64,000 nt of DNA from Diospyros lotus (Eukaryota > Streptophyta > Magnoliopsida > Ericales > Ebenaceae), in assembly GCF_014633365.1 (NCBI RefSeq), contig NW_026267104.1, positions 6,012,587 through 6,076,586 on the forward strand, in the 5' to 3' direction. A program made the position numbers and the translations under genes. Shown here in pieces: positions 6,689-32,412 of this stretch. Every line of letters begins with the position of its first letter. Position 1 is the first letter of the stretch. The notes under the pieces were generated by a model that was given only the letters and a program-made list of their open reading frames with translations, was not told the origin of the DNA and searched no databases.

Positions 6689-6832
6689 TCACAGGGCAAA
6701 AATAGAAGGCCTTGTGCTGCACGAAATTAAAGCCTTCTTGGACAATCGTTTCGTTTCCAACATTTTGGGAGCATTTGATGAGGGTTTTGGGGGAATGAAA
6801 GGACGTGGTGCAACCTCGACCCAGTTGCTCAT
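6689..6832 (-). pseudogene. Small VAP/LETI-motif protein, probably frameshifted
   Basis: Minus-strand reading from the ATG at 6832 gives a 47-residue ORF beginning MSNWVEVAPRPFIPPKPSS and then KMLET, which matches the W-x-EVAP ... LETI pattern of the other small genes in this window. Directly after LET the sequence holds a tandem AAACG-AAACG; the five extra bases shift the frame, so the expected I-x-QE/EE continuation (IVQEG) is readable only in another frame. This reads as a small family member broken by a 5-bp duplication, unless the shorter protein is functional. A TATA-like box lies about 150 bp upstream (6983-6990), and a 3-codon upstream ORF precedes the start. The protein's function is unknown. 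Confidence 0.5.
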
Positions 6833-6982
6833 GTATGAGCTTATTTACTTGGCCATGGCTATGCAAAGAGCCAAGTAACTAACCTTCGTTTGAAGGCCTT
6901 AAAAGAGAGTGAAAGAGGGCTCTTGATAATTGAGAGTTTTTGGAATAGCTATGGGATGGTTGGAGAAGAATTAGATATAGGA

Positions 6983-6990
6983 TTTATATA
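6983..6990 (-). promoter_or_regulatory. TATA-like box for the minus-strand small gene
   Basis: Reads TATATAAATC on the minus strand, followed by a C/T-rich leader (TCTCAATT..., CCCTCTTTCACTCTC) of plant 5' UTR type, before the start codon at 6832. Confidence 0.4.
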
Positions 6991-7799
6991 TTTATGTATA
7001 CGAGTGTTCTAATTATGGTGGTCAAATGTTGAGTCAAAACACCTTGAATTAACCAATGTGTAAGTCAAATAATTTGAACTTCACTTGAACTTAAAAAATA
7101 AGTAAATCCCATTTTAAAGTTTATGCATGTGTAATGTTAGTTTGTTATAATGTGACATCTCATTATCTCCTAAACTACATTGGTCAAGCTCAGGTGAGTC
7201 ATCTATGCCAAATTAAGTTTGTGAATAATTTTTGACTTAATAGCCATTAACTTGCCTTATTTAGGAGTTATGAAGTTTGCTCTAATCTTTTTCTTTCTTA
7301 GGTAAAACGAGTCTTAGGAAACTTAATTAAAGTTTTCTTGATGTTTTATTTTGTGTTTAATTTTGATTATGAAAAACATATTGATTTATATATTACATCA
7401 TAAGTCAAGCATATGATTTTTAAATAAAAATCAATTTCATATACTTAGTTAAAATAGAGCTATATTCATATATATTTTAAATGGAGATTTGTAACGACTT
7501 ATATTTATTTTGATGATAAAATTATTTTATTAATAATTATTAACTTGGTGTTTTAAATTATTTTTATATGATCTATTAAGTACCAAAATAAAAATTAAAT
7601 TCATCATGCAATCCAAGGTTAAAGAAAAATTTTTTGATAGCATTTGGAATATTATATTTTTATTTGATTAAAAATGTGTCAAAAATTTTGTGATAAATTT
7701 TTTAATGGCATTTGAAATATTATGTTTTTATGTGTCAAAAATATTGTGATGGTATTTGAAATATTATGTTTGTATTTGATTAAAATGGTGTATAGAAAA
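6991..7799. other. AT-rich intergenic DNA
   Basis: Very AT-rich. A short motif (TTTGATAGCATTTGGAATATTAT and variants) recurs three times between about 7630 and 7770, so it is a degenerate local repeat. No gene was seen. Confidence 0.5.
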
Positions 7800-8970
7800 A
7801 TTGTTTTCAAAGAGCTTTAAAAAAAAATTCCATCGCTGTTGATTCCAAGCTTAAACCCTCACCACTAGTCGCACATGGGCTCCTATGCGCACGCACAAAA
7901 CCACTCCATCTGCAGCACTTCTCACTTATATATACGAACAAAATTAATTATATAGTAAATCGAATTTCAATTTTCTTTGGCAAAATTGTCGACTAATCTC
8001 CTTGGATTTATTAACCAACAGAATGTAATTTTTACATCTATCAACAGATTGAAAATTTACACCAAAACTGTCGACCGATTTTCATAAACTATCGACTAAC
8101 CTTTCAAACTTTTTTGCATCTATTGACTAATTCTTTTCATCTGTTGATTACTTCTTTTGTCTGATATCACCAACGACTAGTTTTTTTCTCTCATCTAAAA
8201 TGCTCTTTCCACTACTAACGACAAGATTTTTTAAAGAAGTCGTGAAACTCTATAAATAGGGAATAAATGGATTATTCAAGTGAACCAAGATGATTGATTT
8301 CAACCTCTCAAGTGTTTATTCTTTCGATAACTTAATTGTTTCATTTGTTTTTCATTTTTGTCTCCAATGCTTGCTTTCATTTTTATAAATTTACTTTCAA
8401 GTCTTGTTTCTTTATTAAGAAAATTTGAAAATAAGAGTATCTACACTTAGATCATCTCTTTTGTATTATTATTAATTTTTCTAGTAAGATTGCTAGAGAA
8501 TCTACATTGATTGTAAGAAGTTGTATTTTCTAGTTTGTTACTAGAGGACTTGCTTGTTTAAACAACAGATTGTAATACCTAGCTTGTTATTAGAGAGCTT
8601 ATTTGTTTAAACAAGAGATTGTGAGTTCCTAATTTGTTATTAGAGGGCCTATTCAAAGTTATAAGAGGATAACAAGAGATTGTAAGTTCCTAATTTGTTA
8701 TTAGAGGGTCTATTCAAAGTTATAAGAGGATTATAGTGGATTAATTGAAAAATTCTTAGTAAAGAGCTAAGTAGATTAGACTTGATTTAAATCGAACTAT
8801 TATATATCATTTGTGTCTTTCTTGTTTTTGTTCATGTTTTACTTATAGCTCTAAACAATTCTTTTACAAGCATTAAAATCTCATTTTTCACCAAAAATGA
8901 TTTCAAACATCAATCAAATTTTTAAATAACCCAATTCATCCTTTTAAGTACTGGTGTCATTGATATACAA
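7800..8970 (+). mobile_element. Degenerate copia-type LTR (probable solo LTR)
   Basis: The layout fits a plant Ty1/copia LTR: a U3-like 5' part with repeated TCGACTAA/TCGACCGA motifs, a TATA box CTCTATAAATAGGG near 8249, a long T-rich leader, and a 3' end (AACCCAATTCATCC...) that resembles the usual end of such LTRs. Tandem repeats lie in the middle. Both borders are approximate and no target duplication was found. No internal retroelement coding follows. Confidence 0.4.
8535..8735. repeat. Tandem repeats inside the LTR-like region
   Basis: Units of about 50-65 bp share TTGTTATTAGAGGG/GAGC and AACAAGAGATTGTAAGTTCC. The last two units (about 8626-8670 and 8692-8735) are nearly identical. Earlier ones are diverged. 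Confidence 0.7.
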
Positions 8971-9609
8971 ACCTAACACTTCTTTTTAGACAAATTTTGG
9001 TCATTTTTAATACTAGGTTGAAAAACATCTTGGATGGCATTACAATAAACGATATGTGAAGCCATAGGATCATTGTCGAAATTCAACACTTAAATCTCAA
9101 AATTTCAAATCCAAACTCACAATATATCAAGTTTTTGTCACGTTGAAACTGTATTTAAACAAACACGTGAGATGAAAATCAATTGTCTTCACTCTTACAA
9201 GTAAGGCTAATAAATGTTTAGGTGGTCGTGAATGTGGTGTCACATATCCACAGTATTTGGTCGGCCGCCCCCCATCCCACTGTGGAAAACACTGTAGTAT
9301 TAGCACACTCTACTTCTTATTTCGTTTGGTGGGAAGATGCTTTTATAAACTGTTTAAATCGTGGGAGTGGGAGTGGGAGTGGGAGTATACAATAAAATTA
9401 ACAAATTCTTATAAACGAATGACAATTCTGACGTAACGAGAGCTTTGTCCTAATTACTAAATAAAAAATACCAAGCAGGTGACGTCTGTAAGTTATCAAG
9501 TGGGTGAGATTTGGAAGAAATCGAAATAAATAATGGTAGATTCATTGCACTGACAATTCACTGTTACAAATGATTTGCACGTGCAAATTACAATATATAT
9601 GTATGTGTA

Positions 9610-9627
9610 AATATATATATATATAAG
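9610..9627 (+). promoter_or_regulatory. TATA region of the 9708 gene
   Basis: An (AT)n run ending TATATAAGC lies about 85 bp before the ATG at 9708 and is followed by a C/T-rich leader. Confidence 0.45.
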
Positions 9628-9707
9628 CTGTCACCTGCCCTCTCCATCTCCGGCATCGTCTCTGATCTCTTTTATTTTGAGCCGTCGAATCAGAGAAGTA
9701 ACAACTA

Positions 9708-9998
9708 ATGGCGAAAGAATTTGGGAGAGATGTAGGGTACAACAAGTGGGGGGAGGTGGCGCCGGCGCTTCTCGTGTCTCACAATCAGAAGAAGAAGCCT
9801 TGGAGTTCGTGTTCTCCGAGGTTGGACACCATAGCTGAAGAGGCTTGCTGCTGCGGCTGCGGCTGCTGCTGCTCTGATAGTGGTGGAGATACGGACGCCG
9901 CTGAGGCGGAGGCTGCGGCGGCTGCGCAGAAGAGGGTTTTCAGGAATCTTCTTACTTTTCTTTGCCACGCGTTAGCCAACAGATGTGTCGTTGTTTGA
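9708..9998 (+). CDS. Small Cys-cluster protein of the VAP/LDTIxEE type, function unknown
   Basis: A single-exon ORF of 96 residues from ATG 9708 to TGA. It starts MAKEFGRDVGYNKWGEVAPA, then has a basic stretch (KKKPWSSCSPR) and LDTIAEE, the pattern shared with the genes at 6832(-), 13110(-), 26803 and 32110. After this come a run with seven Cys in nine residues, an acidic Ser/Gly/Asp stretch, an Ala-rich run, and a hydrophobic/basic end (RVFRNLLTFLCHALANRC). The start sits about 85 bp after a TATA run and has G at +4. The reverse strand is also open (87 aa), because the (TGC)n and (GCN)n runs avoid stops both ways; the plus strand is preferred for the promoter and the family motif. No signal peptide is evident. 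Function is not known. Confidence 0.62.
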   Translation: MAKEFGRDVGYNKWGEVAPALLVSHNQKKKPWSSCSPRLDTIAEEACCCGCGCCCSDSGGDTDAAEAEAAAAAQKRVFRNLLTFLCHALANRCVVV

Positions 9999-12858
9999 TT
10001 ATATTTTTATTATTATTGGTTTTATATTTGTTTATCAGATCGGGTGGTTTCCCCTCTCCTTGCCATAATTAAAGCTGTTAAAGCCTGTAAATTGGGGATT
10101 GTTCTAATGGGCTTGTACATGCATGGCTGTATAATAAGAACGTTTGTGTAAAATGAGATTATTAATTAAAGCAGATTATATTTATTCACTAATCCTGACA
10201 TTTCACACATTGATTACAGTGTGCACGATCACTCGTATTAATTCGACTGTTCATGAGCATTAAGAAATTCATGTAAGTTGTATAAAATATCAAGTTTAAG
10301 AGCAATAGGGTAATCTAATTCAAGTTTGAATAATTACTGCATAACTTCGCATGGAATGGCAATGAGGTTGATTCCATAAAGTGAAAGTTGCCTAGAGAGA
10401 TGTGTGCTACTTGATGGAGCAGGGGAGGTTTAGGCGTCAAACTTTATGTATCTGGAACCAAGTTCTCAGTACAAGATTAATTTGGTAGCTACTATTGGGT
10501 GACAGTGAATCTTTATGGGTTAGGTGAGTTCACACTTACCAAGTAAACGATCAGTGTTTTTAGTTGCTTCCAGTGCCTTATTCATGTTTCCCATACTGTT
10601 AAAAACTTATATCACTCCACAAAGTGATGAGGTATAAATTAGGATGAAAGATAGGAGATGGTAGAAAAGTCTTCTTGTGTCATGACCAGTGACATTTCCT
10701 TGGGGTTTTCATAGATTGATTTTCTCACCAATTGCCTCAGCAGTTGGGTATCTCTATTAAGACATAGGTCTCAGAAATCATTGTCGATGATTCCTGGATA
10801 TGACCAGAGACAACTTCATTACCATGTTTGAAAATTATTCAAGCCCAAATGCCTAGTCTTCTTAGGGTTGGGTGTAAGAATGAATTGAGGTGGTTGGCAA
10901 CCTCAAATGGAATTTTTTCTATTCGTTCTGCCTTTGCAGGGTCTTCTGATGCAGTGTCCATGTATTTCTTGGTATCGTTTGGTATGGCATAGTTCAAGTA
11001 TTCCTTCATATATGTTTATTTTTTGGATAATGATTGAACATTGGTTATACTTTTGATCATATTAATCATTATTTATATTTTTTAAATAGATACTTTCTTT
11101 ACAAGATTGACGTAACAAAACGACACTGTCATATTTTCTTTTACTACTTATATTCTTGTCAAGTGTTGTCTTTCTTTTATCATTCAAAGAAATTTGAATG
11201 GCATTGGCGTCGATGGGAAAGGGGAGTACTATGGGCAATAACAACGTGGAGTGGTAAAAGCCCTTAGCAAGTTAACCATTTGGTTTTACAGGCTATGGTT
11301 TATATTCTATGAAAAGAGCACAACAATAGATGTTTTAAGAAGCAAAAGCGATCCGTGTCCCAATTGGCACAACAAATTTTGTGTATTGTCTGGACAAAGT
11401 TAGTTACCATTTTCTTTTCTCATACTTTGTAGAACCGTGCTTTGCAACATTTTTGGCAACTCTTGGCTAACCAATATTCTTCTACTCTACTAAGTTGAAT
11501 TACTTAGTAACTGGTGATTGACATTACTAATGTCAACTTTCACGTAAAATAATAGTTGATTCATGAGTATATTGTTGACACTCTAAGCCATTACCTAGGA
11601 AGTAGCCAATATTTTCATCACAAATATTGTCGTCCATGCAAATATACTAATCTAATGCTTAGGGAAGTTCCATGACTTGACAACTTATACTTTGAATGAG
11701 CTCTCTTTAAATTTTTCTAAGTAAATAATCAAGTGTTAACATCATAAATGTAAACATTCATGTTATAAGCCTTCAAGTAAGAAGATTTGTTAACATGAGT
11801 TCGAGAGTTCGCATTTCAATGAATTTTTTTTACAAACTTTTTCTGCTAGTTGTATATAGTTTATTTTTTTTAATTTAAATGAGTGTTTTTTCATTTTAAA
11901 ATTATAGACGTCTTTTGGTTTTCACAATAAAATTCTTATTTACAATTGACTCAAATTAATTAATGCAATTTTTAAACAATTAATCAATGCAATTTTTTAA
12001 CCATGTCTTTGGGGCTGCACCATAAGCATTTGATCATCATAGCTGCCCCCACGGGGAAATGTCATAAAAACTGCATAAACAGGTAACTTTTATATATATA
12101 TGTATATGTATGCCACGGCTCATGTTTGGGAATTTCTTATTGTAGGGTTCTTTTTCTTTAGAGGGGTGTTGCCCGATTAATTGTAGCTTATTAATTGCTG
12201 CTTAAATTATATATTATATATCAGTAAGTTAATTGATTGTTGAGGCCTTGACTTCAGCTCCTTCACTTTCAAGGCTTGACTGGGCTAACTAACCTGGGCT
12301 TGAGGACCTGCCCAGTATATCGGGCTTAATGTTATTTGCAATAAGATGCATCATTCATTATATAGTGACTATGTATTGAAAAAAGATACCCCTATTGAAG
12401 TAGTTCATATATAGTTGCAAAACTGCCCTTAGTCACATCATTCTAATCATCTTTATTATCAAAATTCTAGGCTAAAATTATATGGCTAGGCCGGAATGCA
12501 ATTTTTTTTTATATAAATTACATGGAATGCTTGATTAATTAAGAAAAAAAATTTAAGAATATAATATAGAGGCTCATATGTAGTGATTAATTAATTATAC
12601 ATGTCCACAATTATAGCAAAACACAAGAAATCATACGAGTCGCGATTGATATAACATCACACTGCTACCAAGATTAATTAATTATTATATATCCCAACAA
12701 GAAGAGCTAATTAATTAATATTTCCACACACTCTCTTTCTGCCCATAATTAATTGATGGAAGAGAAGCCCATAATTAAAAAGTTATTAGATGACTTGTCC
12801 TCCCCCTAATTAAGTAGAACACTAACAATGATGGCGGCTGTAGGCAGAGGCAGATCGA
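9999..12858. other. Intergenic DNA without a recognised gene
   Basis: AT-rich. Short ORFs (for example about 11034-11267) have no family features. Nothing convincing was seen; 10400-10900 reads like old repeat DNA. Confidence 0.5.
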
Positions 12859-13110
12859 TTAGTGACTGGAAACCTCCAAGAAGCAAAGATTTTGCAGCAG
12901 AACTGAGGCTGATGATGAAGAGCAAGCACCCGATGATGTTTCCTTGGACTCGTCGTCCCCGGTTCCTTCTTCATAGATCGTTTCGAGGGTTATTCGGATT
13001 TGTAGCCGTCGAGGGGCCGCCGGGAAGCGAGGCGGGGCAACCGCGGAGAACGGACTTCTGAGTGAGGCAGCGGCGGCGTTTGGTTCGCCGGCAATGTGAA
13101 CAGCTGCCAT
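12859..13110 (-). CDS. Small VAP/LETIxEE protein, function unknown
   Basis: Minus-strand ORF of 83 residues from the ATG at 13110: MAAVHIAGEPNAAAAS, then AVAPPRFPAAPRRLQ and LETIYEE, followed by an acidic and Ser-rich stretch (GDDESKETSS, then Ser/Ala) and the end LQNLCFLEVSSH. The AP-x15-LETIxEE arrangement matches the other small genes here. A TATA box (CTATATATATGG, 13198-13209 on the plus strand) lies about 90 bp upstream, with a CT-rich leader. An overlapping plus-strand ORF (12828-13061, 77 aa) exists but has no family motif. The next longer in-frame start would be a GTG at 13134, so the ATG is preferred. It faces the 9708 gene convergently across about 2.9 kb. Confidence 0.6.
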   Translation of the reverse strand: MAAVHIAGEPNAAAASLRSPFSAVAPPRFPAAPRRLQIRITLETIYEEGTGDDESKETSSGACSSSSASVLLQNLCFLEVSSH

Positions 13111-13197
13111 TTTTCCTGAGAATTTGGCTGCCACCCAGAGAGAGAGAGAGTAAAAAAGCTAGAGGGGTTTGCCGACAGATCATGCTGTGCATGCTCC

Positions 13198-13209
13198 ATA
13201 TATATAGTA
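13198..13209 (-). promoter_or_regulatory. TATA box of the minus-strand small gene
   Basis: The minus strand reads ACTATATATATGGAG about 90 bp before the start at 13110. A (CT)n stretch (13136-13150) lies in the predicted leader. Confidence 0.5.
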
Positions 13210-13259
13210 TGAAATTCAACCCCACGGTTTTCTTTTTTTTTTATGTTTTACCCCAATGT

Positions 13260-15216
13260 TAAGCTGTATATGTAGAGATAAAGAGTATGTAATGGGATGT
13301 GGGTGATTATTTTTTAAGGTGAGTCCGCACAAATGCTTTTGTATGCTTATGGGATGTCGACGATTTGTAAATTATTATTTTTATTAAATAATTCTATTAC
13401 ATGTTTGAAAGGTACTGATGCCAAGAAATAATGGTCCTTATTTTTTCTATGATAAAAATAATTTATATAATATTATAGTTGATGTAGACATGGATTGCCT
13501 GCCTGGATACTCTCTTGCATAAAGTGTATCTGTGCAGGTCCCTCCAGCATGGAGAGATGAGACAGTGCCTCAGGAAAGGGAAGGACCAAATTGTTGGAAA
13601 AGTCATGAGAGTCTCTCGTAGACCCTTCTCTAGGGTATTTTTTATGAAAGAGATGCGTAAATATACCTCCGTGATCTTTTCCAAAAGTTGTGTAACAAAT
13701 TATGTTTTTGTTGAATTGATGCTAATCCCAAAATATCAGGGGATAGTTATCACTTCCCCCTCTCAACTTAGTTATAAACAGAGGAGAGTCCATCTTAGGT
13801 AACACTTCAACTCTTCTAAGAGCTCTGGAATCTTGTCTGAGAATTTAACGTAGTCATCAGAATTTTTTTTTTTTTTTTTTTGCAGAATCCTTGCAGCTTT
13901 GAGATGAATTCGTTGGCAAATAAATTCATTATTGTGTTCAAACAATAACACAACAATTGATGTTATCTAGGGATATCAATCAAAAAGCCAAATGCATTCA
14001 TCATACTAAATTTCAAAATGATTTGCACAAGATTACAAACAGTTGGTAATAGGCAAAGCGAAAGACAAAATGTTAACAGTCCTTCGAACCTTGTAAAACG
14101 GTGGGAAACTCTCGGCAAAGGCTCTTGGGGCCTCTGGGATTGTACTATAGATTGTCCTTCTATGCTAGTATGAAGCCCTTCAAAAACAACACGAGGAGAG
14201 CAATAAGGTTCTCCAAGAAATTATGGTTTTCTTGTAGAATGTCATACCTCACGCCTCACTACCATCAACTTTGCAAAATTATGTAAAAATGGGCAAAATG
14301 ACTTAGCACATGAGACCTAGTAAAAGATTCTAAGAGAAGGTTTTTGAGATAACCAACCAAATGATCCACCCATCCCATAAGTCTATTGGGAGAGGGGTGT
14401 TGAAGAGACTCTCTAGACCCAATCCAATAGCTAAAGAGGGACCTAGTTCGGCAAGTAGGGGTTGGTGTAGGCATAGGCCATGATGAAACTAGGAACGCAC
14501 ATCCACGTAAGACATATACTACATACGAAGTAGTAAAGTATAAATGTAGGAGAAGAACTCGGTGTCTTTTCAAAAAAACCAACCCAAAAAAGAATTGGAG
14601 ACTGAAAATAAGATTGTTTTTAGCGCACGAGAGACAACTAATATGAAGAAGATAATCAATCAAGTATTAAAGCAAAAGAAGCTAGTGCCAATAAAAGATG
14701 ACCAGTAAAGGAGGAAGATCCCATTCACTCTTGTGATCATGGAAAAGCCTTTCCCCCTGCTCATCATTAGAAGATGAGGCATCAAAGAAGAAAATTCGGA
14801 GGACTCTGAAGGAACACCTCTTGCATGGATCCTCAATGGGTTCCAAAAAGAGTTTTCCCTCTTCTTTGCTCGAGAAGAGTTGCAGAGTTGCCCTTTTAGA
14901 CTGGAAGGCTAACTAGGAAAGTAGCTCCCTTATGAAAAAAATCAGAAGGTTTTAGTAGCTACACAATTGAAAGCCCCCATTTAGTTGAAGCTATGTTCTC
15001 GAAGGTTAACACCTCATGAAGTTGGAAGGGAATTTATGGGACTAACTAGAGAAGGCATTATAAGATAGGCATTTGAACTAATAGCACGTGCGAACATCTT
15101 GAGAGAAGGCATTTGAACTATTTGCGTTTCTCGCTCTTCGTCCCAACACCATTGTGGAGGTGTGTACCAACCCGTTGGTGGCTTCACTATGAACCAACTA
15201 GCCTTGAAATTATCAA
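13260..15216. other. Intergenic, old repeat DNA interrupted by the hAT element
   Basis: No intact gene. A 20-bp poly-T run lies at about 13862-13882. The text from 13500 to 15216 and its continuation after the hAT element (18440-19400) have similar composition, with recurring AGAGAAGG/TTGGAAG motifs, and look like one older degenerate element into which the hAT element inserted. The family is not recognised. Confidence 0.45.
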
Positions 15217-15224
15217 CCTTACTT
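15217..15224. repeat. hAT target-site duplication, left
   Basis: CCTTACTT, identical to 18432-18439. Confidence 0.9.
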
Positions 15225-15356
15225 TAGACATGGCCACGGTTCATGAACCGCCGGTTCCGGTTCATGAACCGTCGGTTCCGGTTCAAGAAATCTTTGAACC
15301 TGAACCGAACCGCCCAAGGGCGGTTTGGGACGGTTCGGTTCCGGTTCCGGTTTGTG

Positions 15357-15420
15357 CCGGTTCGGTCAACGGTTTGGACCGGTTCGGTCAACGGTTTGAG
15401 CCGGTTCGGTCAACGGTTCC
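15357..15420. repeat. 22-bp subterminal tandem repeat, three copies
   Basis: Units start at 15357, 15379 and 15401 with CCGGTTCGGTCAACGGTTTG; the last is slightly truncated. They lie within a wider zone (15238-15435) rich in GGTTCCGGTTC on both strands. Confidence 0.88.
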
Positions 15421-15798
15421 AGTTCCGGTTCAAACCGAATTTTTTTAATTTTTTTTAAATATTGTTGTATTCAATTTTGGTCCTTGTTCCGTTGTTCGGT
15501 TCGGTTTGGTTTCGATTTTTAATTGTTAAATGTAATTGTAAATATAAATATTCTCAACCATATTTTTAATAAAAAAACACTACTAAAAATTGAAGAAATA
15601 TAAGTAATAATTTCATTAAAAATAATTAAAACAACTAAACAAGTATGTAATACAAGTAATTAATTTTTACAAATGTGAAAAATAAAAAATAAAAAATAGA
15701 ATTAGACTTAATTTCATTAAAAAATAATTACAACAAAAATGTAATACAAGTAATTAATTTTTATAAATGTGAAAAAAAATAAAATATGGACTTGGATC

Positions 15799-17910
15799 CT
15801 ACGCATCTTCATTGGAGTCGGAAGTCGCCGTTGTTGAACCATCATTAACCCATTCGTCAGATGATGATGAATGGATAAGTTCTTCTTGACGTCGCATGTT
15901 AGCTCTTTCCCAATCATCGAGGCAAACTTGAGCTTCCAATGATTCTGGAGCCAATCTTGATCTTCTTTCGTCCAAAATGTTGCCTCCACTACTGAATGTT
16001 TGTTCAACGGCTACAGTTGAAGCTGGAACTGCAAGAAGTTGACTTGCAATAATTGCAAGAGTTGGAAATGTCTCCTTGTGCCTTTTCCACCACTCCAAAA
16101 TTTCAAAATTTAAACCTGTATCATCACCAAACTCAAAAACTGTGGTTAGATAAGTTTCGAGCTCCGAATGTGAGCTCGATCTAGGTTTTTTCCTCCTTTG
16201 ATCTAAAAATTTATGACCCCATTTCATTGGTTGGGAAGAAGAGGAATGCGGAGCCATGGATGGAAATGATTCTTCACTACTAGGAGCAATAACATATGCT
16301 TCATATAATTGATTGCATAAAGTTCTAACCTTAGAAATTATAATATTCACATCAATTTCTTCATTATTTTCTAATCCTAACAACGAATAATAGTTAGACA
16401 AACACTCAATTAAACCATCAAATTTACACCTAGGATCAAATACCATAGTAACAAGAAAAATTTCAGGAATAAATTGATAATAACGTAACCATTTTTCTCT
16501 CATTTCTAAAACAGCATGACAAATTTCTTCAACATTAATTCCTTCCATTAATACACCGGCCACATTCATTGCTTCTATTAAAAATTGATGTGAAGTTGGT
16601 TTATAAACACTACTAAGTGTATGAGTAGCATCATTAAAAATTCGTAAAATATTCAAAATTGAACTACAAACATTCCACATAGTTGGAAAAATAGGATATT
16701 GTGGAATATAATTTGCTGCAAAAGAACACAATAAATCTTTATATTCAAAAGATTGATTAAGTAATTTAAAAGTTGAGTTCCAACGAGTAGGGACATCTTT
16801 TGAAAAACGTTTTGGGGTTTGACCATTGGAGGTGCAAAAATGTGCCCATGCTTTTGCAGTTCGAGGGTGTACCCAAATATAAGAAATAACATTTCTAATT
16901 GGATCTAAATAAGAATTAAGTGACTTAATACCATCTTGAACACATAAATTTAAAACATGACATGCACATCTAACATGAAAAAATCTTCCACCAAAATTTG
17001 GTTGGCAAATTCTTTTCAATTCATTAATAGAAGCAGTATTAGCCGATGCATTATCAAAAGAAATTGAAAAAATTCTATTAACTAATCTATATTCTTGTAA
17101 AATTTGTTGAATTAATCTACAAATATTTTCAGCATTATGACTTTCATCAAAACATCAATACGCAAGAATTCTTTTTTGTAAAACATAATTTTCATCAACC
17201 CAATGACAAGTAATACCCATATATGAATGAGTTTGCCAATGATCACTCCAAATATCACTACAAATAGAAACATTAATATTATTGTTTTGAAAATATGTTA
17301 TCAATTCAATTTTTGAGTTTTTAAACAATTTTAACAAATTCCTTTTCAAAGTATTTCTAGGAATTGATTTAAAACTAGGATTAACAAAGTTTTGACAAAA
17401 TCGAGTAAAACCTAATTTTTCACCAAAACTAAAAGATAAATGATCAATTGCTACCATTTCAGCTAAACCAGACCTACAATTAGCTTCATTATAATGAAAT
17501 AATTGAGGAGAGTTTGAAGAGGTAGCAAACCCGGATATTTGTGTTTGATCGCGGCTCAATCCAACCTTGAGCGGGTGCTTTGTTTGCAAATGTCGGGCGA
17601 AAGTACCATATCCACCTTCTTGCTTGAATTTGTATACCTGATTACAATAATTACAAGATACATCAAATTTACCATCTCCTTTTGGTGTTTTCTTGAAATG
17701 AATATTAAAAATATCAGAAGTAGAAATTTTTCCACCTCCCTTTTGTTGAGTTTCACTCTCTTGTGTTTGAAAATTTTGAGCTTCAAACTCAACATTTTCA
17801 ACATTTTCAAAATTTCTACCTTCACTTGCCACTTTTTTGAAAAAAGTATGATAATAAAAAAATATAATAATGATAAAATAATATAGTAACAAGTAATAAA
17901 TAATTAACAA
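15799..17910 (-). pseudogene. hAT transposase with one in-frame stop codon
   Basis: The N-terminal part (17910 to 17158) has a BED-type zinc finger (CNYCNQVYKF... HLQTKH; C-x2-C then H-x4-H) and the DIWSDHWQTHSYMGITCHW region typical of hAT transposases. The frame is then interrupted by a single TGA at 17155-17157 (after RILAY). The same frame continues through SHNAENIC and ISFDNASAN into the 406-codon part with HVRCACHVLNLCVQDGI and the C-terminal dimerisation region (LLAVPASTVAVEQTFSSGG, then ILDERRSRL). There is no frameshift; family comparison suggests an Arg codon, so a CGA to TGA change fits. The first 25 or so residues of the long ORF are very AT-rich and may be intron, with the true exon starting near 17833. 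The element may be mobile only in trans. Confidence 0.85.
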
Positions 17911-18121
17911 TATAATTGAATAAATTGATAAATAACAAAATGAGAAGATTGAAGAAATTGAAATTAAAATATTAAATGAGAGACAAAATTGAGAGAATAA
18001 TAGCTTGAGACTTGAGAGAGAGAGAGAGAGAAAGTGTGAAAAATGAGTGGGGGAGGGAAGGGTATATATAGATAGGAATTATAAAATTTAAAAAAAAAAA
18101 AAAGTTGGCTGGGGTGGGGGC

Positions 18122-20304: not shown

Positions 20305-20344
<40 letters not shown>

Positions 20345-20345
20345 G
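20293..20345. repeat. (TA)n(GA)n microsatellite
   Basis: TATATATATA followed by an interrupted (AG) tract of about 40 bp. Confidence 0.95.
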
Positions 20346-21205: not shown

Positions 21206-21257
<52 letters not shown>

Positions 21258-21990: not shown

Positions 21991-22386
21991 AGTTGTTGGA
22001 TCAAATCATTAACTTTTGGTAGATCTCAGACCTCGGACCTGCAATCCTTCATCATCTTCTACAACTGGGGTTTCTAACCACCGTCGCCTCTGCTTCATCG
22101 CCGCTGATCGTTGTTAGTTTCCTGAGCTCCGTGGCCGCCGACTGTCGTCAGTTTCTTTTGTAGTCACTGTCAACTACATCGTGGCTGCCTATTCCTGTGG
22201 CTTCCCCAACCGTTGACTCTGTCACTGCAACTTGTTGTAGCTATCGATCCATCATCGTTGTCGATTCATTTTTGTCTTTAACCGTCGGCGACCGCTTCTT
22301 CAACTTCCCGTTTGCCTTCATCTTCATTGGCCAACTATCGGCCTTCTCCGATCACCTTCTGCCACCATGCCATTGACGATGACCCC

Positions 22387-23250: not shown

Positions 23251-23255
23251 ACCCC

Positions 23256-23799
23256 TTAAGCCTCCGCCACTGCTACTAATAGTCCATGTCTCGTGTTCGG
23301 TCACCGACCTCTTGCCATAGGCATCAGCTCTCCTTCCGCCGTTGACGATAACCTTCCAAGCTTTTCCCAAATCTTGCAAATCCGGTCTAGATCTACCCAA
23401 ATCCATTAGATCCACCCAAATCTGATCCATTCAAGACCCAATTCAACCCACCAGATATGCCTAGTCCAGATCTGTCTAGCCTAAGTTTGTTGCCCAAATC
23501 TGCTATCCTTGTTTGTTTTTTGTTGAGTCTTTTGTTTATTAGCTTTTGACCGTGGGTAGGGTTATTTGATATTGGCAATGGCAACCTTGAAATATGATAT
23601 TTTATTGTTGGAGTGAAATATTAGATTTTTATTATGACAAGTAAAGATGTATGCAATTTTGGCATAAATAGATTTAGATGATGCACTATTGAGATTTAAA
23701 TTTAGATTTGGATGATGCACTATTGGGATTTAATAAAATGTCACAATCATAGAGTTACAAGGTCGGCTTAAGATTTTAGAGGCCCTAAGCAAAACTTTA
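23256..23799. other. Right half of the C/T-rich host repeat, plus small duplication
   Basis: Continues the CCACCGTCGCC-like sequence interrupted by the solo LTR. Near 23667-23737 a unit of about 34 bp (GATTT-GATGATGCACTATTG) is present twice. No gene. Confidence 0.5.
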
Positions 23800-23807
23800 T
23801 ATGGGGC

Positions 23808-24571
23808 TAAAGGTGTCAAAAGGGCCGGGCGGCCCGCGGGCCGCCCGGCCCGTTACTGTTCATACGGGCCCGGCCCGGCCCGGCCCCCATTGGGGGGCCG
23901 AACTGGGCCAAAGAAATTGGGCCCCCGGCCCGTGGCCCGTTGGGCCCTTATGGGCTGGGCCCATGAGGCCCTTATGGGCCAGTAAGGCCCTTACTCATTT
24001 TTTTTTTAATTTTATTATTATTTAGTAATTATTGATATTGGATATTAAAAAATTTAATTTCACCATATATATAAATAATAACCATCAATTAATTTATTTA
24101 AAATTTTTAAGTTAAATTTTTTATATATTTAAATTATAAATAAACATTCTCCTTTTTATATGTACATTATTTTTCATATCAATTCACAAGAAAAATTATA
24201 AGGTATATAAAATAATGAAATAATATTTAAAACTTAAGAATTAAGATAGAAAATATTTTAAAAAGAAAAAAATTAATTTTTATATATGTATATATTATAT
24301 GTATTATTTTTAAAAAAATTATTTAAAAAAAAAGAAAAAAAAAGGGCCCGGCCCCCCGGGCTCGGCCCGTTAGGCCCTGTGGGCTAAGGGCCCGGCCCGG
24401 CCCTCTAGCCCACGGGCTGGCCCAGCCCGGCCCGGCCTGGCCCCTTTGTAGGGGGGCCGTGGGTCGGGCCGGGCCCTATCAATGATAAAAGGGCCCGGGC
24501 CCGGCCCGGCCCGTTTAAAAAGCCCGTGGGCTGACTCGGGCCGGGCCGGGCCGGCCCTTTTGACACCTATA
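23808..24571. mobile_element. Non-autonomous GC-rich hAT element (764 bp)
   Basis: The terminal repeats TAAAGGTGTCAAAAGGGCC and, inverted, TATAGGTGTCAAAAGGGCC differ at one base. A perfect 8-bp target duplication TATGGGGC lies at 23800-23807 and 24572-24579. Both subterminal zones are arrays of GGCCCGGCCC-type repeats around an AT-rich, non-coding core. This is a typical hAT deletion derivative with no transposase sequence. Confidence 0.92.
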
Positions 24572-24825
24572 TATGGGGCCCTCTACATTTAAAAATAAAA
24601 TTATATGTAACAAATATTAATAAAAAAAATTATTATATAAAAATATTCAAAATTATCATAATAATAGTTTAAAATTCATAATATTTTACTTTAAATTTAC
24701 TCTTTTAGTATCTTTAGATGAAAAATCAATAATTAAACTATTACAATCAATTTGTTCTAACATATATTTTTCAATAGACACCATCGTTAATCCATTCAAC
24801 ATTTCTAAGTAAGTGTCCAATACCT

Positions 24826-24990
24826 TAGAATTATTATAGCAATATTATTATAGTAATATTTTGTTCCTTTTACCTGTGATTTTTCTCGATTAAGATTTTT
24901 CACGTAAATCTTTTGTATTTGTGTGTTTGATAATTTGATTCAAATTTATTTTCAATCATAAATTCTAATAAGTTTTGACAGGTTACTTGT
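24826..24990 (+). repeat. Copia-like LTR tail, copy 2
   Basis: TAGTAATATTTTGTTCCTTTT ... TTTTTCACGTAAATCTTTTG ... TGTGTGTTTGATAATTTG is the usual flavour of a plant copia LTR 3' end and matches 21839-21990 with divergence. Confidence 0.4.
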
Positions 24991-26570
24991 ACAGTGTAGG
25001 CAATTAGCTTCAAATGCTCCTAAAATGTGCAACCTTTCATTCAATTTGCCATTTGTTTAGGATAACCATATCTCAACCTTTCCTTAGAAAATCAATATTC
25101 TTTAGCAAAAGAATATGTCAATTTCTTTGCAAAATAAGGAACATATATATACATGATATTTCATGTATTGTCATCAAAAGGTTCATCATAATGTTTTTGT
25201 GTTCATTGTAAAAGAGGAAGAGAGAGAGAGAGAGAGAGAGAGATAACATTGCCTCCAACTTTGTTGAACCATTGTCATCATCTCCTCTAAACCCATTGTT
25301 ATCATCCCACCAATTAGATCGTTCCAAATCTAAACCAATCGCCTAGATCTAGAAGGATGATGTTAACCTAGACCGTCTAGGTTCATCATAGAAGAGAGAA
25401 AGGGAAGGTGGAGAGGGGAAGGGGGAGTCAAATAGTTGCTTTCATCTCCACTTTCTACCATTTAAATCTAGAATGGCGTTCATCATGGAGGAGAAAATAA
25501 AAGTCAAATCATCGTTTTCATTCCACTATCTAGATCGTTCTAGATTTAGAATCATCTAGGTCTAAAAGAACGATAAGATCATCTAAGTTTCTTGTAGAGG
25601 AGAGAGAGAGAGAGAGAATTGAATCATCGCTACTATCCCACCATTCAAATTAGGAACGATCGTCCAATTTGGAAAGACACTAAACTTAAACCAGATTTGG
25701 ATTCATAGAGAAGAGAGAGATAAAAAAAAAAAACTTACTGTTATTGTTGAATTGTCACTACTGTCTCATTGTTCCAAATATAAAACGATTGTCAACATAA
25801 TCAAAACCTTAATTAAAAAGAAAGAGATCAATAATATTGTTGTCATCATTGGCGGCAAGAGAAAGAGACCTAGAGAATAGATTGAAAAGAGAGAGAGAGA
25901 GAAATAAAAATAAAAAATGAGAAAGAAGTGTTTAAATATAACAGTATTTTAATTATTTTTAATGTTTAAAAGGAAGTTAACTAAAGGTAGAGAGAAAAAA
26001 AAAAAGCAACATATATTAAATTTTGGAAGCACTTCTTGTATTTTCTCAAACATTAAAGATATTTCTCACAATAATCTCAAACTATACGAATGCCACATAT
26101 AATTTATTCTTAAAATAATAAAATAGAAAGAAATATATATTCATGAGTTTAAAATGAACAGAAATTAAACATTAAAACATTTAAAATTTAGATATTTGTG
26201 AGAGTGAATTTATTTAATACACATGTCAACATTGTTGGTATGTATTTTGAGTTAATTAATTAAGCACGCAAAGAGCAACTATCAGGATCTTCAATGCATG
26301 CAAAAGGGGCAGCCGCCCTTTGCACTCAATTCAGCCAGCCAAGTAATTGCAATACATCATCTTCTCATACACAATAAATAACTCTTGGGGAAAGTGCAAA
26401 AATGGAAGCATCCCATGGATCCTAACAAAAACCATATCTTTGTGCGGGTGCCGCCATCTGATTTTCTTAAAATTAATTTGGCTTTGTCAGCCGAACCTAC
26501 TTTCAATTTAAAATATTTGTAGATTTCACTTCAAAAGCGCCATTTGGATCATTGGAGGACTTAATACTCA
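24991..26570. other. Intergenic, degenerate repeats with GA tracts
   Basis: Between about 25200 and 25920, five GAGAGA tracts alternate with diverged copies of a segment containing CATCATC, ATCTAGATC and TTGAATCATCG-like words, so this is a degenerate tandem array. No gene. Confidence 0.45.
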
Positions 26571-26577
26571 AAAGGGG

Positions 26578-26640
26578 GAGGCGGCACTAAAAGCTAAAAG
26601 TGATTGAACTTGTGTGATTATGACCAGTGATTCAATTTAA
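26578..26640 (+). promoter_or_regulatory. Promoter block shared with the 32110 gene
   Basis: GGCGGCACTAAAAGCTAAAA followed by TGATT...AACTT and GACCAGTGA lies about 220 bp before the ATG at 26803. A very similar block is at 31921-31978, about 190 bp before the paralogue. A weak TATA-like TTTAAA is at 26680-26686. Confidence 0.6.
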
Positions 26641-26802
26641 GCCTGTCCATGCTCTTGCATATCTCATCCATTTACTCCATTTAAACCCTCAGCAATCGCC
26701 CCCCTCCTTCCTCATTCCCAACCCTTCCAAATTCCTGACAAAGCTCTCTCTCTCTCTCCCCCCCTCCCTCCCTCTTCCTCACAGAATTAATTATAATTCA
26801 TA

Positions 26803-27087
26803 ATGGCAAATGCCCGGATTGCAAGGTTTGTTACAGAGACGGCGCCGCCACAGTTTGTCACGGTGATGAGGCAGAGAGCATCAAAGATGTTGGATACGAT
26901 CAATGAAGAAGAGAGAATCGATGCGAACTCAACTGATTCTCTCTCTCTCTCTCCAAAAATTACCTCTTCCAGCAGCTCTTTCACGTCTACTGCTTCTCCT
27001 TCCTCATCACCTTCCAGCAGCACAAACAACAAAACCAAGTACTTTCTCAAGAAGTTGCAGAGATCAGTTTCAATATTTTCCCACTGA
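26803..27087 (+). CDS. Small MANARIARFVTE protein, copy A (function unknown)
   Basis: A single-exon ORF of 94 residues: MANARIARFVTETAPPQFVT, then VMRQRASKM and LDTINEE, followed by a Ser-rich low-complexity middle (partly encoded by a CT microsatellite, giving SLSLSLS) and the basic end KTKYFLKKLQRS-VSIFSH. About 37 of the first 42 residues match the copy at 32110, and the KYFLK end is also shared, while the Ser-rich middle is diverged: a typical purifying-selection pattern. The AP ... LDTIxEE pattern is also seen in the genes at 9708, 13110(-) and 6832(-). No signal peptide or membrane segment was seen. I recall this as a small uncharacterised plant protein family, but cannot name it. Confidence 0.8.
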   Translation: MANARIARFVTETAPPQFVTVMRQRASKMLDTINEEERIDANSTDSLSLSPKITSSSSSFTSTASPSSSPSSSTNNKTKYFLKKLQRSVSIFSH

Positions 27088-27166
27088 GCATGCATTTGCA
27101 TTCCACCCACATGGAATATTTCTTGCAACGCTTTTAAAGTTGCACTGTACCTGGTATTTGATATAC

Positions 27167-27231
<65 letters not shown>

Positions 27232-28329
27232 TTTGGAAGGTGGCTCCAAGTTGCATCCATGGACCATGGAGATTGTTCTTCCACTGTTCAAAAAGCTATG
27301 TCAAAGCTGGTTGTTTGAGTGTTCTTTTGTTTTTCGAGGTTGTCTCTTTTTTGGAGAGGGAGAAGAGATTTTTGTACGTATCCCTTGTACAATGTATCGA
27401 TGCCCCTTTCTACATGATTAAACCCACGTTCAATATATCGATGCCCTACATAATTAAACCCAGAAACGTTGATGCCCTTGGTACAACAGAAAAGCCATTA
27501 GTGGCATCACCTTATCACCAACTGCAAAGGGTCATCGTAAAGAGAATTATGACGGTATTCTTTTAATGTTTTGTTGGGTTTAATAAGCCTGGTCTATCGA
27601 TGATGATGTGCTTTTCTTTCATCTTATCGCCTTTGCAGTTTGGACACAACCAATGTAGAGTTAAGAAATGAACACGCAAAACGGCAACAATGGAAGCAGA
27701 AGAACGAACGAACGAACCGTAAAAGAAACAAGATAATCAAAATTAAGATTATGATTAACCTTGATTGGGTACTAATCGGAAATTAACCTTTTAAGTTTGG
27801 ATTACACACTCTGCTTGTGGGTTTCTTGCCTTTCTAATTAGTCTCTATTTCTTTCTTGCTCAGCTATTAAAGCTAACTAGTTAAATGCTGCCTGCAGTTA
27901 TTTCTGAGATTTGTCTCATATTTTCTTTAGACAGTTTATTAACAACATGTCTCCTCTTGCTTTGTTTCGAGCCTTTCCCCTCCCTTCACATTCTCTTCCC
28001 CACGAACTTCCTTCATGTCACAGCCTAAATCATTTTGACACCCATCATTGTAATCAAACCACTCTAAGTGTGTTGTGCAACACTTCGGCTTGAACCAAGC
28101 CCATCATTCCCGGTGCCAGGTTGGCCTTGCCCTGGGCGAACTAATTGGAACTACCCCAACAGTGTTGTGCCTTGGATCGACCTAGGAAGTTAGCAAAGGA
28201 TCGAGTGGAGTACGAGACTTCTTAACTTCTTAAAGACTAACTTGCCCAAGTCAAAGGAGTTCAAGGGCATAAGAGACACCAATGAGGTGGGAAACTTCTT
28301 TTCGTAATTCGAAAGATACTTTGAGGTTG
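27088..28329. other. 3' flank of copy A and intergenic DNA
   Basis: Contains a (AT)n(TG)n(TA)n(GA)n compound microsatellite at 27161-27231, probably in or near the 3' UTR. Nothing else was recognised. Confidence 0.5.
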
Positions 28330-28720
28330 GACATTGAGGATGACCCGGCTAAGGCATGCGCCGGTATTGCATTGTGATGGCACTGAAAGCATGCTAGCAT
28401 TGAGAAGGTGTGCACTAGGATGCGTTCAAGGGACAGTTCAAAACTGTGGTTTTACCAAAAATATATGGTCTATGAGAGGCGCAAAAGAAGCTACGAGACC
28501 TCAAAGATAATTAAGACTACGATTTATGATCATATTCATGTGAAGTTTGCTCATCATACTCTACAAAAGATGTGGATGACAGCTCCCTCTCTTATTTGGT
28601 TTATAGGGCCTTCAGAATTGGGCTAAGCAAGAGTTTTGGACGCACTTGAAAAGGCCATGGATGAAGCCATTGCGGTGGCCAAATCCCATAGTTATGTACA
28701 TGCTCTGACCACTAGATCTG
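28330..28720 (+). pseudogene. Retrotransposon Gag-like fragment
   Basis: Broken frames read WFYQKYMVYERRKRS..., then FIGPSELG, a stop, and ALEKAMDEAIAVAKSHSYV. The last part resembles the helical end of a Ty3/gypsy gag domain (the usual alanine-rich DLDTAIAAAESL-like segment). It is short, with stops and no zinc knuckle or pol. Low certainty. Confidence 0.35.
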
Positions 28721-29164
28721 GTATAACAAAAAATATAGTTAGATTGCTGTTATGAATGCATAATTATGTATCATTTATCTCATTAAAAGGCCACCCAAGT
28801 TAAGATTGCCAACACCACCACCAGGCCTTATCCCAATCATGTGAGGCTGCCTATACAAAATTATCGAGTCTATCCTAGCAATCATTCCAATCCAAGACAA
28901 ATTTTTTATAGTATCATTATTCCACAAAGTATTCTTCCATCTTCATCTGTTTTTTTTTTTTTTTTTTCAAACTTCTCTTCTATTCCATCCACTCTTATTA
29001 CAAGTGTATTAATATTCTTCTCACATATCTAAATTATTTTAATCATTTTTTGTCTATCTTTATTAATGTGTTAAGATTTTCAATGATAACAAAATTAAGT
29101 TAAGATCCATATAACACATTTCAGACACAACATATGTAGCCAGTATGTAAACAATGCCACCTAG

Positions 29165-29557
29165 GATATGCAGAGTGGTATATCACGTGTCATCTGCGCA
29201 AAGTGCAGGAAATGCTGCTCATCCTACAATGAACACAATTCAGTAATTGGAGCGATCACGTGCGTTCAGCTTATATATGGGTGCTTTGCCTGCAAGCCAG
29301 GGAGGCGAGGACACGGCCTAAATACGAACATCTGTATACTTCTTGTCCCAGTCGGTCCATTATATATATACATATCAAGTGCTAGCCTGTGAGCATCGGC
29401 TCATGAAGGCAACATGTGAGCAAATAAATAGGAAAGAACAAGAATGCATTCAAGATGGAGTGTGGCCATTAAAACCATCTGTGTGACATTTGTGTGAATG
29501 TAGACCTCACTTCTCCCATGAGGTGTGACTACACATTCTATGTGGATAAGACTATGC

Positions 29558-29614
<57 letters not shown>

Positions 29615-29730
29615 CATTCTATGTGGATAAGACTATGCAGTGAGAGAGAGAGAGGATTATTGGATCAAGTCATGAAAATATAATGTTAATCACACAATTT
29701 GCAGGGTAACCCGCAGGATAAACACCCAAA
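29165..29730. repeat. Duplicated non-coding block, copy A
   Basis: Diverged but collinear with 38375-38825: CACAATTCAGTAATTGGAGC versus AACAATTCACTGATTGGAGT, then a TG/GA microsatellite, then ATATAATG ... ACAATTTGCA. It lies downstream of small gene copy A, as the partner lies downstream of copy B. Inside, a 26-bp repeat (29535-29560 and 29616-29641) flanks the TG/GA tract. Confidence 0.6.
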
Positions 29731-30105
29731 AAAAATTGTTGACAAATGTGTGTAAAATACTTTTAAGAAAATATTCTCTCATTTTTTAGTGTTTGGTTAA
29801 CAATTGTTGACATTTAGTTTTTGCAAACATAATGTTGGTTATATGATCAGCACAATTGAGACCAGGATGCTAAAATAAATGTATGATTATACAAAATAAA
29901 GATAAAATTAAAAGTGAAATTGTTTGTAATAAGGTCATAATAGCTCTTATCGTTAAAGATAAGATGCAAGAGAGAATTGATATTATAAGGTCACAAATAC
30001 AGACTCATGATAGTATAGAAATAGTTAATAACAAAGATATATAGGAATACTAAAAAATAAAATAATACTTAGTCAAAGATGGTTAAGGGAAATATTAAGG
30101 CTGTG

Positions 30106-31190
30106 TTTGATAACTAAGATATGTGGTAGAAAATATAAGATATAGGAAATATTATAGACTTTTTAGCTTTTTAACGTATTTGTTAAATTTATCTAATAAT
30201 TTCTAAAAATACATTCACATGACTTCTTATTTGATTTTTTACAAATAAATTTATCTAGGCTCCCTTTAAATAAATTTATCTGAGATCTTACAAATAAACT
30301 TAAATTACTCATATACCCATTTTAGAATAATTAATGTCATTTAATATATTTTTTAAATTTAAATTTATTAAATTTTATTTTGACAATAAAGTTAGTTTTA
30401 AAAGAACTTATTTATTAAGTCTTATAATTAATGTCATTTAATACATTTTTAAATTGTTATATGTTTTGAAAATTTTTAAAATTTAAATGACATTATTGAT
30501 TTCATCGATTTTTAAAATTTTAATTTCTATATATATATATATTATTATCTAACACAAATTCCTTTTGCCAATTTTTTAAATTATTTTATTTAATTTTATA
30601 TTTTATTATCTAATATGAAAATATATATTTTTGACAATTTTTAATTATCTAAGTGGAATTATTGTAATTCCATCAATAATTATTTTTACATTTTGAGTTC
30701 TTTTAGAATCTATTTTTGAAGATACATTTAGAAAATAAAACACTATTTTTATTTTTTATTTTTTATTTTTTGACAATTCACATTAATTTAAAAATATGTT
30801 TTGGCAATTTTTAATTATCTAAGTGAAATTATTGTAATTTCACCAATAATTATTTCTACCTTTTGAGTTCTTTTAGAATCTATTTTTGAACATACATTTA
30901 GAAAATAAAACACTATTTTTATTTTTTGACAATTCACATTAATCATAAAATATTATTTTAATCATAAATTTGTTATTGGTGTTAACATATAGTTTTGAAC
31001 TAATTTGAAAATAAGGATATTTTGATAAAAAAAATCTTATCTCACACTTGAAAAGAAAAAGTATAATTTTCAATAGATTATTAAAAATTTAACAGTCTGA
31101 TAAAAATTTTAGAATACTTTTCAACCTTATCTTGGTCATTCCATATTTTGATTTGAAAACCTTACTATAATCTTATCTCGCTCATTTTAA
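30106..31190. mobile_element. AT-rich element with weak inverted ends (possible MITE derivative)
   Basis: The left end GTGTTTGATAACTAAGATA and the inverted right end GTGTTTATTAAAATGAGC...GAGATAAG are similar. The interior is extremely AT-rich, non-coding, and holds a tandem duplication (30631-30960). No clear target duplication. Confidence 0.35.
30631..30960. repeat. Diverged 170-bp tandem duplication
   Basis: Copies start at about 30631 and 30801. Both read GACAATTTTTAATTATCTAA or GGCAATTTTTAATTATCTAA, AATTATTGTAATT, TTTTGAGTTCTTTTAGAATC and end ...GACAATTCACATTAAT. Some ten substitutions and a length difference in an AT run separate them. Confidence 0.8.
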
Positions 31191-31920
31191 TAAACACTAT
31201 CTAAATATACAAGTCTTATTAAAGAAAATGCAATTGATAGAAAAAAAATAAAAATTTAAAATTTATTTAATCGATTCCCCATATGTTGTGATTTAGGCAA
31301 ACAATGTTAGATAAACCAACTTCTACTTTTGAAGCGTTTCATCGTATTCTTGTAACTTACGTATGTTCGGCCCAAATTTGTTGTTGAGGGGCTCAAATGA
31401 CCAAAAATGCCCGTGTTGATAGTGATTGTCGCTACCAAGACAAGGGTGTTTTGGTCATTTCTTGACGAATGAAATTCAGACCTAATATCATTTGAATTCT
31501 TGCACAAATTCACCCCCGGCCACATCGGGAGCTAGGCACCTCCAAGAGGTACCCCACGTGCCAAATGGCTCCACGCGGCTTCCTATCTGTCCAGAGAGCC
31601 ATTCTTCAGAAAAGTATAATTATGGCAAGTCAAGCACGCACAAACTCCTCCATTGAACCATTGTTTTGACTCAACCTAATGCAAAACCATGCATCTTCAC
31701 TCAGAAACTTTTACCTGACACGTAGCATTTAAGCAGCACCTCCCTAGGAAATCAGAAAGTTTCAAAATGGATGTTTTCGATGCCAACAAAAAACATATCT
31801 CCAAGAGATACCAATTCTTCTCTCCATCCATCGACACATTGCGCAATCAGCTCCACCCATCAGTATACAGTCTCACAAATGGCTTGACATCAACGTCCAT
31901 GCAATGAATGCCCAAAGTAA

Positions 31921-31978
31921 GGGCGGCACTAAAAGTTAGAACTGATGTAACTTAAACATTTAGGACTAGTGACTCTGT
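31921..31978 (+). promoter_or_regulatory. Promoter block shared with the 26803 gene
   Basis: GGGCGGCACTAAAAGTTAGA ... GGACTAGTGAC aligns with 26578-26640, at a similar distance to the start codon. Confidence 0.6.
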
Positions 31979-32026
31979 CTATGGACAAGCATGCCCTCAC
32001 AAATCTGATCCAAACCCAACAACGGC

Positions 32027-32035
32027 CTTATAAAT
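32027..32035 (+). promoter_or_regulatory. TATA box of small gene copy B
   Basis: CCTTATAAATT, about 80 bp before the ATG at 32110. It places transcription start after an in-frame upstream ATG at about 31978, supporting the MANAR start. Confidence 0.65.
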
Positions 32036-32109
32036 TCCATCCAGAGAAAGCATTCCCCTCCAAGCTCTTTCTCAACCTCCTTAGCTCTTATTCTCTCATT
32101 CTTGATCAA

Positions 32110-32412
32110 ATGGCAAACGCTCGCATTGCAAGGTTTGTCACTGAGGCAGCGCCGCCTCAGTTGGTGAGTGTCATGAGGAACAGAGCATCTAAGATGCTGG
32201 ACACGATCAATGAAGAAGAACGAGACATCGGTTCGAATGATCCTACTCTATATCCAAAGAGTTCTCCATCTTCTTCGTCCACCCCTCTATCTGCTTCATC
32301 TTCCATGAATGCAACCAAAGCTAAGTACTTTCTCAAAGAGGTGCAAAGATGTCGGTTTCAGTATTTGGTAGCTAAATCCTTGCGTCCAGAGGAGCATCCA
32401 CCCCACAACTGA
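32110..32412 (+). CDS. Small MANARIARFVTE protein, copy B (function unknown)
   Basis: A single-exon ORF of 100 residues: MANARIARFVTEAAPPQLVS, VMRNRASKM, LDTINEE, a Ser/Pro-rich middle, then KAKYFLKEVQRC and a C-terminal extension ending EEHPPHN. It is the tandem paralogue of 26803-27087 (about 5.3 kb upstream, same strand), with the conserved N-terminal 42 residues nearly unchanged. The frame is open upstream to 31969, but the TATA box at 32027 and the copy A start argue for ATG 32110. Function unknown; no membrane or export signal was seen. Confidence 0.8.
   Translation: MANARIARFVTEAAPPQLVSVMRNRASKMLDTINEEERDIGSNDPTLYPKSSPSSSSTPLSASSSMNATKAKYFLKEVQRCRFQYLVAKSLRPEEHPPHN

Follow-up and report, generated by a model that had tools for sequence, protein, structure and literature searches.

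The stretch analysed here is a window of 64,000 nucleotides from Diospyros lotus (contig NW_026267104.1 of assembly GCF_014633365.1, forward-strand positions 6,012,587 to 6,076,586; GC content 36%). It carries five short open reading frames (ORFs), designated by first position and strand as 6832(-), 9708(+), 13110(-), 26803(+) and 32110(+), in which an Ala-Pro (AP) block is followed by the heptapeptide L[D/E]TIxEE or its first residues. Together they probably form a gene cluster, three members being clearly of one family and two probably so, which encodes mostly disordered-looking proteins of about 80-100 residues. An earlier note, made from the sequence alone, had picked out these ORFs; all five were found where it placed them, with the gap of 14-19 residues between the AP and L blocks that it gave. 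The full heptapeptide stands in four of the five, because 6832(-) loses the matching frame after LET, and the low-complexity acidic/Ser tail that the note attributed to the whole set was borne out for 13110 (acidic/Ser) and for 26803 and 32110 (Ser-rich) but not for 9708, whose tail is Cys/Ala-rich, or for 6832, which lacks such a tail.

Comparison with 200 first-order Markov shuffles of the window, made by 2-kb block, indicates how unusual the pattern is. The six frames contain four instances of L[DE]TI.EE and the shuffles none, and the same holds when an AP block is added ([VTA]AP-x(10-25)-L[DE]TI.EE, four versus zero). The shorter form [VTA]AP-x(10-25)-L[DE]T retrieves exactly the five ORFs, against a shuffle mean of 0.065 and a maximum of 1, while W.EVAP...L[DE]T is found twice, in 9708 and 6832, and never in the shuffles. 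These patterns were chosen after the data had been seen; the profiles described below, built from relatives outside the window, are independent of that choice. GC content is likewise higher in each ORF (0.45-0.56) than in the 500 bases on either side (0.31-0.42). Chance is rejected for the motif by the shuffles, and for 26803, 32110 and 13110 as ORFs by their relatives. The small-protein family has no match above the curated cut-offs of Pfam and NCBIfam.

The protein of 26803 retrieved 49 relatives at E up to 0.01 (100 candidates), all of them from eudicots where the organism is named (39/39), including Camellia, Rhododendron, Bertholletia, Solanaceae, Gossypium, Carica and others; the closest is from Camellia (70%). 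Their sources call them hypothetical, uncharacterised or leave them unnamed, none of the 49 has a listed Pfam domain, and no solved structure matched 26803 up to E 1. Three relatives come from Solanum verrucosum, namely MTR67_029782 (P0032), MTR67_029783 (P0029) and MTR67_030197 (P0016); because the first two bear consecutive locus tags, tandem copies are hinted at there, which suggests that the family has been tandemly duplicated in Solanaceae too. A search with 13110 gave eight relatives among nine candidates (E 5e-7 to 0.02), from Camellia, Quercus, Vaccinium, Shorea and Rubroshorea (three together) where the organism is named (6/8). In the nine-row alignment of 13110 with these relatives P20, F21, A23, V24, P26, TLETI, EE, CFLEV and a few other positions are invariant. 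The protein stops three residues past CFLEV, as does one relative (P0053), whereas the other seven of the eight continue for 12-15 residues.

Profiles tie these two subfamilies together. Searched against the 1498 ORFs of the window, a profile of the eight relatives of 13110, without the window row, finds 26803 (E 3.3e-6) and 32110 (E 3.2e-5); the reverse profile of subfamily 1, built without window rows from the 40 of 49 relatives included in its alignment, matches 13110 more weakly (E 0.0037). Direct comparison of the two alignments by hhalign, here with the window rows included, gives a probability of 95.4 and E 1.7e-8 at 27% identity; the 64 aligned columns extend from the AP block as far as the C-terminal one. 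Counted from the Ala of AP, the Leu of the motif comes 16 residues later in 46 of the 49 relatives of 26803 and in seven of eight relatives of 13110, and 13110 itself has one residue extra. A core profile of 33 columns, made from 53 of the 57 relatives (P0023, P0024, P0030 and P0050, with other spacing or no AP, were left out), matches 26803 at E 1.1e-23, 32110 at E 3e-22 and 13110 at E 1.3e-12. A C-terminal FL(K)EVQ[RK] block recurs as the variant FLKKLQR in 26803, in part as CFLEV in 13110, and as FLKEVQR before the frame is lost in 32110; its loose pattern is present in 22 of 49 and seven of eight relatives, some gene models among them being truncated or extended. The block was not seen in 9708 or 6832 by pattern scan. 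Judged on sequence, the tails of the family have demonstrably changed fast.

The two members of subfamily 1 in the window are tandem paralogues. Their DNA aligns by blastn over 504 columns (65%, E 1.9e-42), an alignment that takes in the coding part and, ahead of it, 223 bases of flank at 26803 and 188 at 32110. The first 38 codons differ at 5, 2 and 15 first, second and third positions, with dN 0.065 and dS 1.08 (NG86), so that dN/dS is about 0.06, a rough value because the codons are few; this points to selection at the protein level in the N-terminal region of the pair. Within the C-terminal block, at about 32350, the frame of 32110 differs, which deprives the protein of the end of that block and extends it: the frame as read gives VQRCRFQYLVAKS..., and the alternative frame reads SVSVFGS and then a stop, resembling some Solanaceae ends. 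A TATA-like site lies 81 bases upstream of 32110 and is preceded by an ATG at 31981.

Table 1. Members of the small-protein cluster, their motifs and flanks, and other genes and mobile elements of the window
Feature	Positions	Strand	Basis
CDC50/LEM3-family gene exons	3-257, 1729-2097	+	Pfam, E 8e-17 and 3e-36
Probable relative, disrupted or altered, 47 aa (WVEVAPRPF...KMLET, frame lost thereafter)	6689..6832	-	core profile
Direct repeat GAAACGAAACG where the motif frame of 6832 is lost	6747..6757	-	frame comparison
Probable third subfamily gene, 96 aa (WGEVAPALL, LDTIAEE, Cys/Ala-rich tail)	9708..9998	+	ORF, core profile
LDTIAEE, LxxIxE-type motif of 9708	9822..9842	+	ORF translation
Second subfamily gene, 83 aa (PFSAVAPPRF, LETIYEE, acidic/Ser linker, CFLEV)	12859..13110	-	ORF, 8 relatives, alignment, profiles
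LETIYEE, LxxIxE-type motif of 13110	12967..12987	-	ORF translation
hAT transposase (BED finger and dimerisation region, two long ORFs)	15802-18078	-	
5' flank common to the 32110 gene, reading GGCGGCACTAAAAG...; probable promoter and leader	26580..26802	+	blastn
Small gene, intact, 94 aa (AP block, LDTINEE, Ser-rich linker, C-terminal block KYFLKKLQRSVSIFSH)	26803..27087	+	ORF, 49 relatives
LDTINEE, LxxIxE-type motif of 26803	26890..26910	+	ORF translation, conservation in relatives
5' flank common to the 26803 gene	31922..32109	+	blastn
Tandem paralogue of 26803, retaining AP block and LDTINEE; 100 aa as read	32110..32412	+	ORF, blastn
LDTINEE, LxxIxE-type motif of 32110	32197..32217	+	ORF translation
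Second hAT-like transposase	42850-44298, within 42644-44666	+	neighbouring ORFs judged by eye
Retroelement with integrase	integrase 45635-46927, within 45635-48817	-	neighbouring ORFs judged by eye
DEAD-box RNA helicase-like gene exons	53456-61314	-	Helicase_C, E 3e-16 at 53456-53827

Across the relatives the most regular element is the motif itself. None of the 57 lacks L[DE]TI.E[ED], and L1, T3, I4 and E6 are the same throughout; position 2 is Asp in 34 and Glu in 23, position 7 is Glu or Asp, and position 5 varies among N, K, Y, H, Q and C in 53 aligned rows. AP stands 16 residues before the Leu in 53 of the 57, and its constancy in the 53-row alignment follows by construction, because the rows were chosen by that spacing. 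The pattern [LMFIC]..I.E matches exactly once per relative (57 matches in 57 proteins), and the 15 residues upstream of the motif contain two to four Arg or Lys in all 49 relatives of 26803 and one to three in all eight of 13110, with three or four in the four motif-bearing ORFs of the window. AlphaFold2 models of 26803 (pLDDT 55.7; a single weak helix at residues 16-30, ending at the first motif residue) and 13110 (pLDDT 59.5; no secondary structure) are both poor, which is consistent with disorder; the subfamilies thus share short blocks and not a predicted fold.

These features fit a known type of short docking motif. According to the available portions of PMC10418862, conservation of the LxxIxE-binding groove of the B56/B' subunits of protein phosphatase 2A (PP2A) extends from yeast to plants; the same source gives a list of 107 proteins of Arabidopsis with an LxxIxE motif, on which relatives of the present family may already stand. 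In the animal protein KIF4A, as excerpts of PMC7108865 describe, changing two residues from CS to LE raises B56 affinity about 50-fold; its authors assign the Leu to a deep pocket and the Glu to mimicry of phosphoserine, and report that affinity also gains from basic patches up to about 15 residues upstream. Such a patch helps some ligands and is not strictly required. By analogy, L[D/E]TIxE would be an LxxIxE docking motif seated in the groove of PP2A-B' subunits, with the acidic second residue replacing phosphoserine and the Arg and Lys residues just upstream assisting by charge. The proteins might then tether PP2A-B' to a partner that binds either the AP or the C-terminal block; alternatively, they might keep PP2A-B' substrates out of the groove by competition. 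The differing tails could give each copy its own partner or expression pattern. We put the probability that the family consists of small disordered PP2A-B' docking proteins, acting as tether or competitor, at roughly 40%. Clearly less likely is the fuller proposal that these are clustered, fast-diversifying eudicot microproteins whose conserved function is that of a constitutively strong, phospho-independent LxxIxE ligand of PP2A-B', tethers or competitive inhibitors dedicated to tuning PP2A-B' signalling while their tails stay free to change partner or expression.

Several observations weigh against assigning the proteins to PP2A-B'. LxxIxE is a short motif, and three of the eight relatives of 13110 have only one Arg or Lys upstream of it. 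T3, which lies outside the LxxIxE requirement, matches L, I and E in constancy, and M1, A2, R5, F9, E12, P15 and R23 are likewise invariant in the 42 rows of subfamily 1, so that constraint extends beyond the motif, although invariance is overstated throughout because the search gathers relatives by shared five-residue words. Residues 21-50 of 13110, with AP and the motif inside, reach mean pLDDT values of 69-77 by block, and this stretch may therefore not be fully disordered. Lastly, 9708 and 6832 are weakly matched as members, and 6832 has no motif in frame.

Much of this would be accommodated if the family were real but AP...L[D/E]TIxEE were a bipartite docking peptide for another partner, such as a kinase, calmodulin, an E3 ligase or a transcription factor, and the resemblance to LxxIxE a coincidence. 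The fixed spacing of AP and L suggests that one surface reads both blocks; besides the unchanging T3, the residue seven before the Leu is Arg in 52 of 53 rows and Lys in the remaining one. A calmodulin binder might have a helix with basic residues, and a weak basic helix is predicted in 26803. Between the two blocks, however, the subfamilies have little in common beyond F, V and R columns, and the 13110 model has no helix, which together make a shared helical ligand unlikely, while the variable position 5 and the acidic position 2 fit LxxIxE readily. This explanation, nearly as likely as docking to PP2A-B', stands mainly because the AP block, T3, R5, F9, E12 and R23 are left unexplained by LxxIxE.

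A narrower view would confine the family to 26803, 32110 and 13110 and regard 9708 and 6832 as unrelated ORFs with a chance look-alike motif. Both are absent from the lists of the two subfamily profiles up to E 10, and the core profile gives them E 0.053 and 0.33; a protein search with 9708 returned no relatives (seven candidates, none at E up to 1), and the AP-to-L spacing of both departs from the fixed spacing of the relatives. Against chance stand the shuffles, none of which held either L[DE]TI.EE or the W.EVAP...L[DE]T pattern, the latter common to just these two ORFs, which are also the only ones with W.EVAP in the window. They rank fourth and fifth of 1498 with the core profile, a rank that is partly circular because the earlier reader had picked both by the same motif, and 9708 is an island of GC (0.56, versus 0.37 and 0.34 in its flanks). 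In 6832(-) the alternative frame past LET reads TIVQEG. The restricted family is rather unlikely, and from their sequences 9708 and 6832 probably make up a third, W.EVAP subfamily. That all these ORFs are decaying, functionless remnants is improbable: the frame changes in 6832 and 32110 and the shortness of 13110 relative to seven of its eight relatives would fit, but the low dN/dS of the pair, relatives in several eudicot orders and the intact 26803 speak against it, and the frame changes might be assembly errors.

The broader claims of the earlier note accordingly hold in part. Its single family is supported by reciprocal profile matches and the spacing of 16 for 26803, 32110 and 13110, the evidence for 9708 and 6832 being suggestive. 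Old tandem amplification finds DNA evidence in the 26803/32110 pair; no DNA alignment of 9708, 13110 or 6832 to the pair or to one another covers the ORFs, and amplification there is inferred. Of the three ORFs on which the note staked its own refutation, 13110 has plant homologues that keep both AP and LxTIxEE; the search with 9708 gave none, and no result so far refutes the note on this point. The suggestion of a short linear motif has gained a concrete candidate in LxxIxE, whose function here is predicted from sequence.

Two further candidates were rejected. One was a site for a basophilic kinase near the C-terminus, with the consensus VQ[RK]xxS, whose loose pattern appears in 22 of 49 and one of eight relatives. 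Among 45 pattern-matching stretches in IMG/VR, one passed tblastn (E 3e-6, 48% over residues 10-38), and was deemed a chance match, being antisense to a long ORF and without L[DE]TI.E.

The cluster is flanked by a CDC50/LEM3-family gene, presumably a flippase subunit of the kind called ALIS in plants. Because a hAT transposase sits between 13110(-) and 26803(+), mobile-element insertion has probably stretched the cluster; a second hAT-like transposase and a retroelement lie at higher positions. In the helicase-like gene, positions 60952-61314 give a DEAD match below the cut-off and a DDX47-like match at E 4e-6, and the ORF at 55731-55991 has no Pfam match.

Were the docking reading correct, the family would offer a peptide-sized PP2A-B' ligand as a simple handle, with two separable residues and natural tail variants, and would illustrate that short ORFs labelled hypothetical can form a coherent family. 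In the available portions of PMC10418862, signalling by brassinosteroids and by salicylic acid is linked to PP2A-B' subunits of plants, and the Arabidopsis LxxIxE proteins are presented as candidates deserving tests. Judged by titles and the opening of abstracts, the open-licence literature yielded no plant family of LxxIxE small proteins, and searching by motif words gave the same outcome.

Among known systems, CTNIP signalling peptides (At2g31345, At1g06135, At1g06137 and At2g31335) had been considered as relatives, probably wrongly: these codes occur in the available part of the CTNIP paper (PMC9191895), and no likeness to the family was found, judged by gene codes and without sequence comparison. 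The ORFs 26803 and 32110 are members of a group of eudicot hypothetical proteins (Camellia LOK49_LG09G01279, Solanum MTR67_029782/029783), with which they have in common MANxRIARFVTEVAPPQFVxVMRxRASKMLDTINEEER and, where retained, the C-terminal FLKEVQRSxSxFG block. The PP2A B56 regulators and substrates BUBR1, RepoMan, KIF4A, AIM1 and NHS are large animal proteins. As far as the accessible parts of the sources go, in them too LxxIxE lies in a disordered region preceded by basic residues, and in tighter ligands the second residue is acidic or phosphorylated; in the present family it is acidic. In those proteins, however, the motif is a small part of the whole, whereas in the present plant proteins of 80-100 residues it ranks with the best-conserved parts.

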